Shown here piece after piece: positions 5,973 to 17,916 of a DNA stretch of 35,034 nucleotides. The stretch covers positions 228,805-263,838 of the forward strand of contig NZ_CP034876.1 in the NCBI RefSeq assembly GCF_005081705.1, given 5' to 3'. Both the position numbers and the translations under genes were made by a program. Origin of the DNA: Buchnera aphidicola (Hyperomyzus lactucae) (GTDB lineage Bacteria; Pseudomonadota; Gammaproteobacteria; Enterobacterales; Enterobacteriaceae). The notes under the pieces were generated by a model. It saw only the letters and a program-made list of their open reading frames with translations. It ran no database searches and was not told where the DNA came from. Every line of letters starts with the position of its first letter. The stretch's first letter is position 1.

Positions 5973-6896
5973 TTACTTAGTTATATCTAAAATTGATAAT
6001 ACTAGCTCATCAAATGATATCCCCATTTTTTTTGCTGATATAGGTACTAAACTTCTATTTGTCATTCCCGGTATAGTATTTACTTCTAGCAACCAAAATT
6101 GATTGTGATTATCTAATATAGTATCAATTCTTCCACATCCACTGCATCCTAGTATTTTCCATGCCAAAAAAGCTATTCTTTTTAGTTCTTTTTCTTTCTG
6201 TATAGGTAGCCCACTTGGACATATATATTTAGTAGAAGAATCTGTATATTTAGCATTATAATCATAGAAACGATGTTCAGTGGAAATATAAATAGAAGGT
6301 AATATATTTTCGCCAAGAATAGAGATCGTGTATTCTTTACCCTTTATAAATTTTTCAATAAGAATATTTTCATCGTAGATAGAAGCAAGATTGATGGCAT
6401 CATTAATTTGTGTGATACAAGAAACTAATGTCATACCTATACTTGAACCTTGATTATTTGGCTTGATTAAGACAGGCAATCCTAATTTTAATATTTTTTT
6501 AATTATAAGAGAACTCAATGCAGTTGTATTTTTTTTTTTTTTTTGAATATAAACATCGGGTGCTGTTCTAAGACCAGAAGATTTCCATAATAATTTAGTT
6601 CGAAATTTATCTATGGCAATTGAAGATGCCATAATCCCACTTCCTGTATAAGGAATATTTAAATATTGAAGAACCCCTTGAATGCTACCATCTTCACCAC
6701 CTTTTCCATGTAATGCAATATATGCTTTATCAAAACCTTCTTTTTTTAAATTTATTATAGAATAATCACGTGTATCAATCGGATATGCATTTAATCCAGA
6801 TTGTAATAAACTCATAAGAACTGCATATCCTGATTTTATTGAAATTTTTCTTTCGGAAGATGTTCCTCCTAATAAAACTGCTATTTTTTTATTCAT
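5973..6896 (-). CDS. ddlB: D-alanine--D-alanine ligase B
   Basis: Joins two D-alanines with ATP to give the dipeptide that MurF adds to the peptidoglycan precursor. It has 307 residues (306 in E. coli). ATP-grasp features include the N-terminal [13 protein letters not shown], the [12 protein letters not shown] motif, the lysine in [15 protein letters not shown], and the metal-binding [15 protein letters not shown] near the end. Its ATG overlaps the murC TGA (6893-6896), implying translational coupling. The gene holds a run of 16 A on the coding strand (6529-6544) encoding a lysine stretch after IQ; the frame is intact as read, but such a run is prone to slippage. It lies directly before ftsA because ftsQ is absent. 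Confidence 0.97.
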
Positions 6897-8337
6897 AATA
6901 TCACTTTTTTGTTGTTTTTTATCAAAAATTTATGTACTATTTTATCTATATTTCCAGCACCTTGTATCAAAATAATATCGTTACCATTCAAGTAAGGCAC
7001 AAGAGTATCTAATATTAAATTATGATCAGAAATAAAGTCTGTATAATTTTTACCTAGTTTTTTTATATCAAGATAAAGTGAAAAACTATCTCCTCCAGAA
7101 ATAAACTTTTCGTTTGCAGAATATACATTCAATATTAAAAGAACATCAACTGTAGATAAAATTTTTACAAAATCATTATATAAATTATATGTTCTCGTAT
7201 ATCGATGAGGTTGAAATATCATTATTAAGTTTTTTTTAGGCCATCCAGTTCTTATTGTTTTAATAGTTTCAGATAACTCAGTGGGATGATGTCCATAATC
7301 ATCTATTAACATAGTACTAATATTATGATTAATGTTGTTTTTTATTAAAAAATATCCAAGGCATTCAAATCTTCTGCAAGTACCTTGAAAATTTTTTAAC
7401 GATGCAATTATATCGTGATTTTTTATACCTTCATGTATTGCGAGCGCGACAGCAGCTGCAGCATTTAGTGCATTGTGTTTACCAGGAATATTTAATGTTA
7501 TATTTAATTTAGTTTTATTTTTTATAATTAATTTAAAATGTCCTACAAAAAAATATTGTTTATAAAATTCGATACGAATATCTGCATTTTTATTAAATCC
7601 GTACGTAATAATTTTACATTTTATATTAGGTAAAATATCGCAAATAGCAGAATTATCTGTACATACTATAGCTGTACCATATAATGGAATTTTTTTCAAA
7701 AAATTCAAAAAGGTTTTTTTTAATTTTTTAAAACTATTATTATAATTTTCCATATGATCAGGTTCTATATTTGTTACAATAGCTATTTTAGGATTTAAAT
7801 ATAAAAAAGAAGCATCACTTTCATCTGCTTCTACAATAAAGTAACGAGAGTGACCAAGTTGTGCGTGGGCATTGATTGATTTTATTAAACCACCATTAAT
7901 ACAAGTGGGACTCAAGCCATTATTAATAAATATATCTGTAATTATTGAAGTAGTAGTAGTTTTTCCATGAGTTCCAGAAATAGCTATTCCAAATTTATAT
8001 TTCATTAATATTTGTAGCATTTCTGCTCTTAATAATACAGGAATTTTGAGTTTTTTAGCAGCAATAATTTCTTTGTTAGTTGATAAAATAGCACTAGATT
8101 TAATTATGTAATCGATATTATAAATATTTTTTTCAGCATGTTGAAAATATATATTTGCTCCTAGATTAATTAATTGTTCAGTAATGGTATTCTTTAATAA
8201 ATCAGATCCACTAATTTTATAGCCTAATTTTAATAAAATTAAAGCTATACCTCCCATACCAGACCCACCGATACCAATCAAATGAATGTTTTTTTTTTGA
8301 ATAAAAAAAAATTATTTTTTATATTTTTTATGTTCAT
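6893..8337 (-). CDS. murC: UDP-N-acetylmuramate--L-alanine ligase, frameshifted at A10 near the start
   Basis: Adds L-alanine to UDP-MurNAc, the first amino acid of the peptidoglycan stem. Motifs are [10 protein letters not shown] (UDP binding), GTHGKTTTT (ATP P-loop), EADESDASF and DDYGHHPTE. The unbroken frame runs only from a TTG at 8279-8281, which begins inside the first strand (E. coli has about 22 residues before VGIGG) and has no ribosome-binding site. Upstream, ATG at 8335-8337 opens [16 protein letters not shown], then stops at TGA 8278-8280. The two frames meet in a run of 10 A (8289-8298); one extra A joins them into a product of normal length. The first stop upstream of the main frame is at 8312-8314. 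Its TGA overlaps the ddlB ATG. Function is probably kept by transcriptional slippage, but a sequencing miscount is possible. Confidence 0.93.
8289..8298 (-). repeat. A10 slippage site in murC
   Basis: Ten consecutive T on the plus strand (A on the murC coding strand). The ATG-initiated frame enters this run and the conserved MurC frame leaves it, one base out of register. Eleven A would join them. Poly(A) tracts of this size are known sites of RNA polymerase slippage in Buchnera and Blochmannia. Confidence 0.8.
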
Positions 8338-11925: not shown

Positions 11926-12998
11926 TAACACACCTGTAAGGATATAAGGCTTATTAAAAGTAATATGAATGAGATAATCCAGAATCTTATAATGATTAAA
12001 GGTTCTAATATTCCTTTTATTTCATAATGATGATGAATTGGTGCCATTTTAAAAATTCTTTTTTTTCTAAATTTAAATGATACAACTTGTAAGATAACAG
12101 ATATAGTTTCCAAAACAAAAATACCACCCATTATTAATAACAATAGCTCTTGATGTAACAATATTGCTATAGTTCCCAAACAACCACCTAATGACAATGA
12201 TCCAACATCTCCCATAAATATTTTAGCTGGATAGGTGTTAAACCATAGAAAGCCTAATCCTGATCCAATAATAGCAGTACACAATATAGCTAACTCTCCT
12301 GAGTTTTTTACATAAGTAATATGTAAGTAATTAGAACTATTAATATTTTCACTTAAAAAAGATATTAATGTAAAACCACATGTTGTAAAAACAACGGGCA
12401 TGATAGCTAAACCATCCAATCCATCTGTTAGATTGACTGCATTACTAGCACCAACAATAATAAAATAAGATAGAAATATATATAAATAATTTATTTCAAA
12501 AGAATTTTGTGCATAAAAAGGGACTATTAAATGAGTAGGAATAATGTTTGAATTATTACTATAAATAGTATAAATTAGTCCAAAAGCAACTATAGATAAC
12601 CAGAAATATTTCCATTTTAATTCTAATCCTTGAGTATTTTTATATTTTATTTTTTTATAATCATCTATTAAACCTATTAAACCATATCCAATTAAAATAG
12701 TGATAACATACCAAATATAAAGATTAGATAAATTACAATATAGAATTGTTGAAAAAAATATAGAGAGTATAATAAACACCCCCCCCATAGTAGGCGTATC
12801 TTTTTTTAAGAGATGTGTTTTTGGTCCGTTTTGTCGTATTATTTGATATTTTTGTAAATTTTGAAGATATTTTATGAAATATGAACCCATCAATAAACTA
12901 ATAAAAAAAGAGGTTAATAAGCTTAATATGGCACGATATGAAATATGAGAAATAAAACTTAAATGAGAATTGAAATATTTATTAAACAAAATCAACAT
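11925..12998 (-). CDS. mraY: Phospho-N-acetylmuramoyl-pentapeptide transferase
   Basis: Integral membrane enzyme that moves phospho-MurNAc-pentapeptide from UDP to undecaprenyl phosphate (from the UppS pathway), forming lipid I. It has 357 residues (360 in E. coli) with about ten hydrophobic segments. Signatures are TPTMGGVFIIL, the aspartate pair D112-D113 in LIDDYKK, NAVNLTDGLDGLAIMP, FMGDVGSLSLGG and the MAPIHHHYE histidine motif. The ATG is preceded by a strong GAGGAGAG ribosome-binding site, itself inside murF, and the gene overlaps the end of murF by 17 nt. The TPTMGGVF region is written with a run of eight G on the coding strand (12779-12786), unusual in this AT-rich DNA. Confidence 0.97.
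   Translation of the reverse strand: MLILFNKYFNSHLSFISHISYRAILSLLTSFFISLLMGSYFIKYLQNLQKYQIIRQNGPKTHLLKKDTPTMGGVFIILSIFFSTILYCNLSNLYIWYVITILIGYGLIGLIDDYKKIKYKNTQGLELKWKYFWLSIVAFGLIYTIYSNNSNIIPTHLIVPFYAQNSFEINYLYIFLSYFIIVGASNAVNLTDGLDGLAIMPVVFTTCGFTLISFLSENINSSNYLHITYVKNSGELAILCTAIIGSGLGFLWFNTYPAKIFMGDVGSLSLGGCLGTIAILLHQELLLLIMGGIFVLETISVILQVVSFKFRKKRIFKMAPIHHHYEIKGILEPLIIIRFWIISFILLLISLISLQVC
11931..11935 (-). promoter_or_regulatory. Ribosome-binding site fixing the murD start
   Basis: AGGTG on the minus strand, 5 nt before ATG 11923-11925. It lies inside the mraY coding end and overlaps the alternative GTG, so it supports the shorter, family-length MurD. Confidence 0.6.
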
Positions 12999-14361
12999 TT
13001 TTTTTACTCTCCTCGATAAGGTATTCTACTACTTCCTCCATTTTTGCATCACGAGATCCTTTAACTAAGATTGTAATTTTGTTTTTCTCCAAAAATATCT
13101 TTTTCAGATAGCGATTTAATGTTTTTTTATCAAAAAAATGTTTTCCATTATTAAAAATTTTAGTAATTTCATGACTTATTTTTCCAATACTAAAAATTTT
13201 ATTAATTTTAGATAAATTAGCAGTATTACCTATCATTTGATGATATAAAATACTTTTTTCTCCTAATTCAGCCATATCTCCTGTAACTAATATTTTATAA
13301 CCTGGCATTTTCTCTAATACTTTTATTGCTGAAATCATAGAAGAAACATTAGCATTATAAGTATCATCAATTAAAATTTTACAAGGATTTGCTAATATAA
13401 TAGATTCTAATCTTTTTGATATAATAGGAGTGTTGAATAATCCTGTTTTTATTTTTTTTAAAGGTATTTTTAAAGAAAAAGAAAGAGCGCTAGCAGCTAA
13501 TGCATTAGAGACATTTTGATGACCTAAGAAAGGTAGTGAAATATTTATTTTTCCACATGGTGTATGCATAGTAAAAGAAGTACTATTTAAATTAATTTTA
13601 ATATTACTCGAAAAAAAATCGCTATATTTTTTTTTTTTAATAGAAAAATATAAAATATTTTTTTTTCTTATATTTTTTTTCCATTGCGAAAGATGATTGC
13701 TATCTAAATTGATAATAACTGTACCATTCGATTTAAGACCAGAAAATATTTCTGATTTTGCTTTAGATACTCCTAATAAAGATTTAAATCCTTGCAAATG
13801 AGCGTAGTGAATGTTGTTAATTAATATAACATCTGGTTGAGTAATATTACTTGTGTAAGAAATTTCCCCTGGTTTATTTGCTCCTAGTTCAATTACAGCA
13901 TATTTATTTTGATGTGTTAACTGTAACAAAGTCATAGGAACACCAATATTATTATTTAAATTATCAATAGTAGATATTGTATTTCCATTTTGTTTAAGTA
14001 TAGATGCAGTCATTTCTTTTACTGAAGTTTTTCCACAAGAACCAGTGATGGCTAATACTTTTGCATTTGTTTTCTTGCGAATCCAAGCAGCAATTTTTCC
14101 TAAAGCAATCGATGTATTATCTACTAAAACATAAGAAACATAACAGACTATATTTTTTTGTGTTATAATACTAGAACAGCCTTTTTTAATTGCATCTTGT
14201 ATGAATATATGCGCATCAAATCTTTTTCCTATTAAAGCAACAAACAAACAACCCGGAACAATTTTTTGAGTATCAATAATAATTTTATCTATAAACAAGT
14301 CTTTTCCATATAATTTTCCATTAGTAATTAAAGCAATTTTTTTTAACGATAAAGTAATCAT
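12982..14361 (-). CDS. murF: UDP-MurNAc-tripeptide--D-alanyl-D-alanine ligase
   Basis: Adds the D-Ala-D-Ala dipeptide made by DdlB, completing UDP-MurNAc-pentapeptide. It has 459 residues (452 in E. coli). The Mur ligase ATP loop is ITGSCGKTSVKEM (near 105-117). Other markers are the N-terminal IIDTQKIVPGCLFVAL, NNIGVPMTLL, the conserved LGHQNVSNALAA, and DDTYNANVSSM with ILVTGDMAELGE. Its ATG overlaps the murE TGA (14358-14361) and its 3' end overlaps mraY by 17 nt. A run of 12 A on the coding strand at 13627-13638 encodes four lysines in a loop; the frame is intact but the run is slip-prone. Confidence 0.97.
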   Translation of the reverse strand: MITLSLKKIALITNGKLYGKDLFIDKIIIDTQKIVPGCLFVALIGKRFDAHIFIQDAIKKGCSSIITQKNIVCYVSYVLVDNTSIALGKIAAWIRKKTNAKVLAITGSCGKTSVKEMTASILKQNGNTISTIDNLNNNIGVPMTLLQLTHQNKYAVIELGANKPGEISYTSNITQPDVILINNIHYAHLQGFKSLLGVSKAKSEIFSGLKSNGTVIINLDSNHLSQWKKNIRKKNILYFSIKKKKYSDFFSSNIKINLNSTSFTMHTPCGKINISLPFLGHQNVSNALAASALSFSLKIPLKKIKTGLFNTPIISKRLESIILANPCKILIDDTYNANVSSMISAIKVLEKMPGYKILVTGDMAELGEKSILYHQMIGNTANLSKINKIFSIGKISHEITKIFNNGKHFFDKKTLNRYLKKIFLEKNKITILVKGSRDAKMEEVVEYLIEESKKNVDFV

Positions 14362-15888: not shown

Positions 15889-17595
15889 TTATAAATCATC
15901 TGGTTGAATATTCCTTTTTTGTAATATTAATGTCATTATCTTACTAAAGACAGGAGCAGACACTGCACCTCCATAGTATTTTTTTCCTTTAGGATTATCA
16001 ATAACAATTATTAATGAAAATCTTGGTTCACTAGCTGGTGCAATTCCTGCCGTATAAGCTATATATTTTTTTATATACTGCCCTCTTAATCCTACTTTTT
16101 TTGCAGTACCAGTTTTAACTGCAATGCGATATCCTTTAACTGCTGCTTGTACACCGCCTCCACCTGGTTTAGCAACACTTTCCATCATATTAATTACATT
16201 TTGTACATATTTTTTGGGAAAAACTCTTTCTCCATATACAGGATAATTGACTTTTGTAATTGAAAGAGGGCGATAGATTCCATAACTGCCAATCGTGGCG
16301 TATAATCGCGCTAACTGAAGAGGAGTAACCATAAGTCCATAGCCAAATGAAAAAGTAGCTTTTTCTAAATTAGACCAAATTTTTTTTTTAGGCAAAACAC
16401 CATTATTTTCTCCAATTAATCCTAATTTAGTTGGCTGTCCTAATCCAAATTTAATATAACTGTCAACTAATTTTAGGATCGGTATAGAAGATGCTATTTT
16501 TGATACTCCTACATTGCTCGATTTTTGCAATATTCCAGTTATACTAAGCTGATCATGATATGAAACATCTTTTATTTGATGTTTTTTTATGAAATAAGGT
16601 TTAGTGTTTATTATTGAGTCTTTTTTAATTATTCCAAGTTTTAATGCTTCTATAATTACTATTGGTTTTATTGTGGAACCAGGTTCAAAAATATCTGTGA
16701 TAGCTTTATTACGAATATTGTTTTTTAAGCTATTATTTATGTTATTAGGATTATATGAAGGACTATTTGCCATTGCTAGAACTTCTCCAGTTTTAATATC
16801 AATTAATACTGCACTACCAGAATCAGCTTTGTTTTTTTTAACTCCCTCGTTTAATTTTTGATATACAATAGTTTGCAATTTTTTGTCTACACTCAGTGTT
16901 AAGCTATTAGATACGCATTTATTAACTAAAGATATATTTTCAATAATTTGTCCTTTATTATCTCTTCTTATTTTTCGTTTTCCAGGTTTTCCTGTTAGGA
17001 GTTTATTAAAACTTTTTTCTACACCTTCAATGCCTATTCCATCTATGTTTGTTATTCCTATTAGTTGAGCTGCAATTTTTCCAGAAGGGTAATATCTTTT
17101 AGATTCTTCTAATAAAAAAATTCCAGGTAACTTTAATTGTTTGATATATTCTCCAATTTCAGGAGTAATTTGACGGGCTAAATAAATAAATTTTGATTGT
17201 ATATGATTATTAATAGTGAAAATGATTTTTTTTAATGGAATAGAAAGTATTTCAGATAAAGCTTTCCATCTTAGATCATTTTGAATATTTTTTTTATTAG
17301 TAATTTTCGAGGGATCTGCACAAATCGCATTCACTGATACAGTTACTGCAAAAGGATATCCTGATCGATCATGAATAATTCCTCTTGTACTGAGTAAAGA
17401 CTGTATTCTTGATGTCCTACGATCTCCTTCAAGAATAAGTAGATTAGAATTAATTATTTGTAAAAAAATTATGCGTAGTGTTAAAATAATTAAAGATACA
17501 AAAATAAAACTACATAATATAAAAAACCGCTTATGCATGTATGTTGTTTTTTTTATTTTTTCTTTAAAAAAATTGGTTTTCTCTTTTCTGTGCAT
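15889..17595 (-). CDS. ftsI: Septal peptidoglycan transpeptidase FtsI (PBP3)
   Basis: Class B penicillin-binding protein that cross-links septal peptidoglycan made by FtsW. It has 568 residues (588 in E. coli). A short cytoplasmic N-terminus is followed by one membrane anchor at about 24-48. The pedestal domain contains RGIIHDRSG and [14 protein letters not shown]. The transpeptidase motifs are S307-T-I-K310, S359-S-N361 and K494-T-G496, at the same numbers as in E. coli. The C-terminus is shortened, which in E. coli lies beyond a processed end. A coding-strand A10 run at 16380-16389 encodes lysines but leaves the frame intact. The start ATG is preceded by a GTAGAAA sequence at best. Confidence 0.97.
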
Positions 17596-17662: not shown

Positions 17663-17916
17663 TTATTTTATTTGTGTTGTAGAATCTATGGATAAAGCGT
17701 TTTTTTCAATTATTAAATTTCTCCACTCATCATTTTTTTTTTTTTTTTTAAAAGCAATTGTTCTTCTTGAGTAATCAATAGACGAGTTTTGTAAACTGTA
17801 ATAACAATGAAATTAGCAGATAATATAATTGCTATTAATAAAATCAAATGCATTTTTCCATATAAAATAAAATCATTTTTAATTATTGTTAGTAAATCAT
17901 AACGTTTATTCTTCAT
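17663..17916 (-). CDS. ftsL: Cell division protein FtsL, frame broken at A17
   Basis: Small bitopic division protein whose periplasmic coiled coil normally pairs with FtsB and activates FtsWI. The frame from ATG 17914-17916 gives a cytoplasmic segment, a membrane helix (about 23-42) and TRLLITQEEQLLL, which matches E. coli TRLLTAQREQLVL. It then enters 17 coding-strand A, and as written ends after five lysines and MMSGEI at 17713-17715 (67 residues). In the next frame the sequence continues DEWRNLIIEKNAL and stops at 17663-17665, matching E. coli DIEWRNLILEENAL. One additional A (A18), or two fewer, gives about 84 residues. E. coli FtsL has 121, so even the repaired protein is short at both ends. 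It begins 2 nt after rsmH. Slippage rescue is the likeliest reading; true decay or a miscounted homopolymer are alternatives. Confidence 0.85.
17733..17749 (-). repeat. A17 homopolymer in ftsL
   Basis: Seventeen consecutive T on the plus strand, the longest homopolymer I found in the window. It lies in the coiled-coil part of ftsL exactly where the conserved reading frame changes register, encoding only lysines. Confidence 0.9.

Follow-up and report, generated by a model that had tools for sequence, protein, structure and literature searches.

A frameshifting poly(A) run in ftsL of Buchnera, recurrent across the genus in one preferred phase and followed by codons with the signs of coding constraint

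The division gene ftsL of Buchnera aphidicola from Hyperomyzus lactucae lies on the minus strand, flanked by rsmH and ftsI, in the chromosomal window analyzed here, the whole 35,034-nucleotide stretch of contig NZ_CP034876.1. Its reading frame is interrupted by a run of 17 A, and the remaining codons are found in another frame. The question raised by this locus is whether the gene is decaying, wrongly assembled, or alive and restored at some later step. In the zero frame, translation from the ATG at 17916 leads to KKKKKMMSGEI and to a stop at 17715-17713; the first-pass annotation, which had given 67 residues ending in MMSGEI after A17, was correct in coordinates, letters and frame arithmetic. 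In the -1 frame, DEWRNLIIEKNALSIDSTTQIK is encoded by 22 open codons from 17731, closed by a stop at 17665-17663; their beginning, DEWRNLIIEKNAL, matches E. coli FtsL from residue 79. By the assembled sequence, reads aside, this is an indel in a long A run of a gene elsewhere open. The features are collected in Table 1; the window has no Rfam matches at gathering thresholds.

Table 1. Features of the ftsL and murC frameshifts in the window
Feature	Position	Strand	Basis
ftsL ORF of 67 aa in the zero frame: cytoplasmic portion, transmembrane helix, initial periplasmic coil	17713..17916	-	Pfam FtsL, 32.8 bits (cut-off 22.9)
A17 tract in ftsL, lacking one base for an intact frame (or with two extra)	17733..17749	-	assembled sequence, frame arithmetic
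displaced ftsL 3' part, DEWRNLIIEKNALSIDSTTQIK plus stop, -1 frame relative to the start	17663..17731	-	block identifiable in 34 of 35 genomes; third-position-biased change
ftsL codons matching E. coli FtsL W81-L91 (AWI/CCD block), with K at E88	17693..17725	-	alignment, residue counts; block as defined in passages of PMC7733951
ftsI, intact, next downstream of ftsL	15889..17595	-	anchor for the locus search in relatives
probable start codon of murC, read in the frame preceding A10	8335..8337	-	sequence
A10 tract displacing the first codons of murC, same phase as ftsL	8289..8298	-	sequence

The match of the displaced frame to E. coli FtsL, proposed from the letters down to the stop at 17663, is borne out by an intact Buchnera homologue (G006), whose 84-residue FtsL aligns with 8hhf_L, which we take to be the FtsL chain of E. 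coli, from residues 4-83 to 20-99 with no gap (E = 5.3e-16). EWRNLIIEKN of the former stands opposite EWRNLILEEN of the latter, and the displaced codons correspond, by this alignment, to E. coli residues 79-91 and onwards to about 100. The AWI/CCD block, W81-L91, is found in the window in the -1 frame only, out of frame with the ftsL start. With Pfam FtsL (PF04999), the score of the 67-residue ORF, above cut-off (Table 1), compares with 62.8 bits for an intact relative; in NCBIfam, the ORF falls below both FtsL cut-offs (53.5 of 96 and 19.1 of 42.45), and the intact relative is above one of them (47.5 of 42.45). The prediction that A18, or A15, would restore 84 residues agrees with a near relative (P0001, 88% identity over 75% of the ORF), where 84 residues are in frame. 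As also expected, annotation yields short forms, a 67-residue protein being named FtsL in the Buchnera of Diuraphis noxia (P0012).

The 22 codons without a stop had been taken as a sign of selection. Openness alone is weak evidence, since 517 of 5000 dinucleotide shuffles are open as well; selection is instead supported by the relatives, from which the evidence against chance comes.

Of 36 Buchnera genomes, 35 yielded the ftsL locus upon matching to FtsI, the remaining one (G025), which has no FtsI match, being outside the count. The gene is in frame in 15 genomes and lacks one base in 18, including the window genome; in a single genome (G023) it is in the third phase, with TGA at once, and in one the block is lost. 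The first-pass annotation had overlooked this recurrence of the broken state. In all 34 genomes retaining a recognisable block, W81, R82, L84 and E87 are identical. A freely decaying frame past the tract, named beforehand as evidence against a kept frame, was looked for in the relatives and is absent, G004 excepted. Both the A run and the WRNLIIEKN block are missing from this genome (locus L063), and its FtsL ends in LIKQKQREQHSLLKKYT. The exact codon pattern of WRNLIIEKN was found in 31 of 394 related genomes, all of them Buchnera, and is missing in five Buchnera (G004, G005, G019, G025 and G031). An FtsI scan of named genomes, from which near records were possibly omitted, gave one distant locus, in Sulfurospirillum, at 30% identity.

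Among the broken genomes (18) the longest A run measures 9-18 bases, and among the intact ones (15) 8-16 (medians 11 and 13, respectively, P = 0.41); tract length was discarded as an indicator of a broken gene. Base calling often makes long homopolymers too short, and an assembly one A short, with A18 in the DNA and an intact ftsL, would give exactly the missing-base phase observed; in-frame genes with A16 are known (G017 and G024), and the assembled A17 may be off by one. Under-calling does not readily account, however, for nine broken genomes where the longest run has just 9-10 A (A9 in five of them), for an A9 common to four lineages, or for murF, whose frame is disrupted in 29 of 35 genomes, in most of them at 10-12 A. 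Moreover, the G019 gene is broken at A10 in a genome which fits the PCR-free Illumina assembly of Pentalonia Buchnera described in passages of PMC7718742. An assembly error is, on balance, an unlikely explanation.

Near-identical strains seem to vary in run length: two protein clusters, P0006 (68 residues, 7 contigs, the longest of 628,098 bases) and P0010 (82 residues, 5 contigs, the longest of 628,100), have the same sequence up to the tract, phase being the sole difference. On a tree built from 8 protein alignments (3,148 columns, some nodes with less than 80% support), the ftsL phase changes 11 times, compared to 12.1 +/- 1.5 upon shuffling (P = 0.32); with so little phylogenetic signal, some broken tips are possibly recent. 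Both members are broken in the sister pairs G011/G033 and G008/G010. Tract length might also vary among chromosome copies or cells, in-frame and out-of-frame genes coexisting and switching at the DNA level. Such a mixture would be compatible with the slippage proposed below, and is in line with the two clusters, with the low phylogenetic signal and with the within-strain polymorphism, single-base indels included, reported for two Buchnera in passages of PMC3164680. However, the two clusters represent different strains rather than one population, and the third phase, which free drift should make common, was seen in 1 of 34 genomes; we hold a DNA-level mixture to be doubtful.

Selection on the displaced codons was evaluated by codon-position counts. 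Over the first 12 codons past the run, parsimony assigns 10, 3 and 24 changes to positions 1, 2 and 3 in the 18 broken genomes, and 13, 1 and 22 in the 15 intact ones, on trees pruned for each set, in which inner branches of the broken set may have been in frame. In the broken set, 13 of 37 changes fall at positions 1 and 2, where two thirds are expected (P = 1.4e-4). Amino acid departures within WRNLIIEKN are few, being limited to G019 (two) and G031 among the broken genomes and to G005 among the intact ones. Third-position changes in the same block number 26 over the 34 genomes, compared to 29.7 expected from conserved codons for the same amino acids in neighboring genes (P = 0.33): synonymous change being normal, the constraint acts on the protein. 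By these counts, the post-run block appears to evolve like an ordinary well conserved protein, purifying selection being a property of the broken genomes pooled, among which the window genome is one tip of 18.

The objection that all breaks may be recent is best answered by six broken genomes that group together (G011, G033, G021, G002, G035 and G030), with the intact G006 placed within their group: the 38 nucleotides after the run are unchanged in all six, against a divergence of 20-38% at four-fold sites of ftsI. The run reads A9-G in G011, G033, G021, G002 and G035, and A10-G in G006; one ancestral A9 followed by one gain would be a simpler history than multiple independent losses, on a tree where three nodes of the group have support of only 68-79%. 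In the broken pairs G008/G010 and G016/G032, 3 of 36 bases differ in each, at four-fold divergences of 17% and 31%, respectively. These ftsI comparisons cover 17 pairs, with ftsI taken from 25 of 34 genomes, the six cited included. The 38-nucleotide stretch is the second longest unchanged run in an alignment of 12,941 columns; an additional constraint at the RNA level was considered on account of these invariant bases, yet rejected because of the normal synonymous change over the 34 genomes.

Recent neutral inactivation, with ftsL dispensable and its decay just begun, appears contradicted at the genus level by these substitution patterns. Buchnera does lose genes, G004 is without the ftsL block, and ftsL is listed in 0% of Lachninae and 84% of Aphidinae Buchnera, according to a portion of PMC10591338. 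On the other hand, the 18 broken genomes retain the block with substitutions distributed as in the intact ones, the broken state is common to the sister pairs mentioned above, and the third phase is almost absent. This explanation is, in our opinion, very improbable.

The phase of the breaks is strongly biased. Free drift of tract length would make the two broken phases about equally common, with respect to which the ratio of missing-one to third phase in ftsL, 18:1, is lopsided (P = 7.6e-5 if the genomes are taken as independent). The favored phase, one base missing or two extra, is the one mended by one additional A in the RNA or by a -1 step of the ribosome, the latter route having been overlooked in the first-pass annotation. 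The low phylogenetic signal suggests a turnover fast enough to populate the third phase, if it were tolerated. A mutational bias towards deletion was set aside as the less likely sole cause: it would need all breaks to be recent, whereas the low signal and the lineages sharing A9 favor turnover, and pure deletion bias with recent breaks only is the weaker alternative.

The same direction prevails in other genes of the cluster, namely murF (28:1), murE (7:1), murC (5:0), mraY, ftsI and murD (1:0 each), leading to a total of 61:3 over seven wall and division genes, a figure which counts genomes and not independent events. The murF bias may be for the most part one old event; in murE, the same direction is found at several distinct sites. 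Frame changes were read from tblastn fragments, which for 8 genes and 35 genomes gave 40 changes in 280 copies, not all of them checked by eye. In one genome (G031, locus L073), the ftsI frame changes near residue 130, beside a run of A10, with the missing-one phase.

For murF, 26 of the 28 missing-one genomes were tested (G004 and G019 omitted). Their 4,680 post-shift codons contain no stops, and changes at positions 1, 2 and 3 amount to 374, 199 and 661 in the 180 post-shift codons (out of 185) present in all 26, a pattern similar to that of the 205 codons before the shift (441, 202 and 848). In these genomes, the post-shift codons of murF thus appear to be under coding constraint. In the window, murF (12982-14361) is in frame, with A12 at 13627-13638, and ddlB is in frame despite A16 at 6529-6544 on the minus strand, a second very long run in the cluster. 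The window copy of murC (6893-8337, minus strand) is frameshifted: 16 residues from the ATG at 8337 are followed by A10, and the enzyme resumes in the -1 frame. This start frameshift is present in 5 of 28 genomes bearing the motif, always in the same phase. In 7 of 35 genomes (G001, G008, G010, G014, G017, G020 and G024), the start motif was not detected where expected, and the loss of murC may be real there, unlike that of murF.

The frameshift in the assembled sequence, the same state in roughly half of the Buchnera genomes, the protein-type constraint on the displaced codons and the phase bias are all observed. We propose that ftsL is a maintained poly(A) frameshift, probably rescued by slippage of RNA polymerase. 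The DNA would encode, in the zero frame, the truncated 67-residue FtsL; the polymerase would slip on the A run, producing mRNAs with mixed A counts, of which those with A18 or A15 would direct the synthesis of an 84-residue FtsL with AWI/CCD, and the remainder mostly that of the 67-residue form. The AWI/CCD of the long product would contact FtsI and activate FtsW, and as the long product carries this block, selection would retain the displaced frame, though the gene appears broken. Slippage at this run, its yield and the long product as the working form are what we infer. The initial expectation that every third transcript class encodes the full protein is too even, the range published for other symbiont genes being 12-50% of transcripts corrected (Tamas 2008, as quoted in passages of PMC5009743). 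Of 157 insertions in Buchnera RNA, 151 were located within homopolymers, as compared with 16 deletions, and a transcriptome-wide study including Buchnera reports no frame-restoring transcription error, in the sections of PMC5574713 dealing with these data. The short A9 runs weigh against slippage, which should be weaker there.

Persistence at A9 alone would be accounted for by a ribosomal -1 shift on A_AAA_AAA or A_AAA_AAG within the run, a mechanism compatible with slippage. The displaced frame being -1, a single shift of this kind would be enough; all-A codons are present, and the slippery heptamer A_AAA_AAA lies here in the zero frame. A zero-frame A_AAA_AAG occurs in 8 of 18 broken and 1 of 15 intact genomes, a contrast which is confounded, because removal of one A before a conserved GAY codon creates AAG, and is not to be taken as main evidence. 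However, there is no class-wide stem-loop after the run (mean z -0.37 in broken and -0.32 in intact genomes; 2 of 18 broken below -2; window 0.26) and, as synonymous sites are free, a stimulator is not seen to be kept. For this reason, and because of precedent, slippage is ranked above the ribosomal shift, which we judge to be a rather improbable explanation. The explanations considered here overlap, and their likelihoods need not add up to one.

What is displaced, described from the letters as the lost half of a coiled coil, does belong to it, but is more exactly the AWI/CCD block. In the relevant passages of PMC7733951, this region of E. coli FtsL is defined by dominant negative mutants at R82, N83, L84, L86, E87 and A90, its partner is FtsI, and loss of charge at E88 gives an over-active FtsL. 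In Buchnera, besides the invariant R82, L84 and E87, N83 is found in 33 of 34 genomes and I at position 86 in 33 of 34, while position 90 is occupied by T (12), S (11), A (10) or M (1). The codon equivalent to E88, at 17702-17704 in the window, specifies K in 34 of 34. Searches of the window genome gave a match for FtsB and none for FtsN and FtsQ, both of which are detected in E. coli by the same searches; ddlB and ftsA are separated by only 133 bases, and both ftsQ and ftsN are listed in 0% of Buchnera in the portion of PMC10591338 on these genes. It is possible that the fixed E88K-like change substitutes for the FtsN signal. By analogy with E. coli, FtsL without the displaced block should still sit in the membrane, but would not activate FtsWI.

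The short FtsL might be useful itself, for example as a brake, recruiting FtsW without activating FtsI, the run setting the ratio of brake to activator. It retains the cytoplasmic and membrane parts, and AWI mutants of E. coli FtsL are dominant negative in the passages just mentioned. Nevertheless, the zero-frame tail after the run varies (MMSGEI, TTNGEI, IMNGGI), merely mirroring the other frame, and the 15 in-frame genomes need no short FtsL. A role of this kind seems quite improbable to us.

The displaced codons of ftsL being those of the activator block, the tract is placed where division activity could be set. We put forward, as a tentative extension and with some reserve, that the phase of broken runs in Buchnera is itself selected, a run being kept either in frame or in the phase mendable by +1 slippage or by a -1 shift of the ribosome, and almost never in the remaining one. 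Genes such as ftsL and the murE and murF with displaced frames would then be live at reduced dose, and the ftsL run would set the share of FtsL carrying the AWI activator, in a cell without a recognisable FtsN. The 61:3 bias provides a simple rule for RNA data and further genomes.

Surveys discarding frameshifted genes can misjudge symbiont capabilities. According to passages of PMC9116674, CDSs with internal stops or frameshifts were removed as likely pseudogenes, and murF, murC and/or murE were missing in Aphidini Buchnera, where persisting wall-building then needed explaining. As murF has an open and constrained frame past the run in the 26 genomes tested, part of this puzzle may, in so far as the two sets of genomes correspond, be an effect of gene calling.

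The mechanism itself is already known. The ftsL frameshift was not met in the passages of the literature on Buchnera and ftsL that were consulted, although the homopolymer lists of PMC3164680 may include it, nor was the phase rule in passages on related topics. Portions of PMC3164680 describe homopolymeric frameshifts in murF, murE and mraY, members of the same cluster as ftsL, and our murF states agree with those reported there (intact in A. pisum Tokyo, broken in Ak, Ua and Sg), as do murE and mraY, broken in Sg. That study counts inactivations, four of them independent for murF, slippage being noted as possible; here, murF codons appear constrained. The -1 frameshifting of E. coli dnaX on A_AAA_AAG, in the account given by part of PMC5009743, resembles the ftsL case in type of slippery sequence and in direction. 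In contrast to dnaX-type systems, ftsL has no stimulator seen to be kept, and it is the long form, not the short one, that needs the shift.

The closest parallel is with the poly(A) frameshifts of Buchnera and Blochmannia rescued by transcription slippage (Tamas et al. 2008, through passages of PMC5009743, PMC3017870 and PMC3164680), among which ftsL is not named in these passages. The proven cases include cell wall genes of an aphid symbiont, as stated in part of PMC5009743. As in ftsL, one base is gained or lost within an A run, and the AT-rich symbiont gene is open in its remainder. They rest on transcripts, 12-50% of which are corrected, while the evidence on ftsL comes from DNA. Frameshifts kept by selection between Blochmannia species have reportedly been described by Wernegreen, Kauppinen and Degnan in 2010, a work cited in passages of PMC3017870. 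There, as in ftsL, the broken state is common to species, with no decay after the run; unlike in Blochmannia, the ftsL phase turns over across the 35 Buchnera genomes, and is nearly limited to one of the two broken phases.
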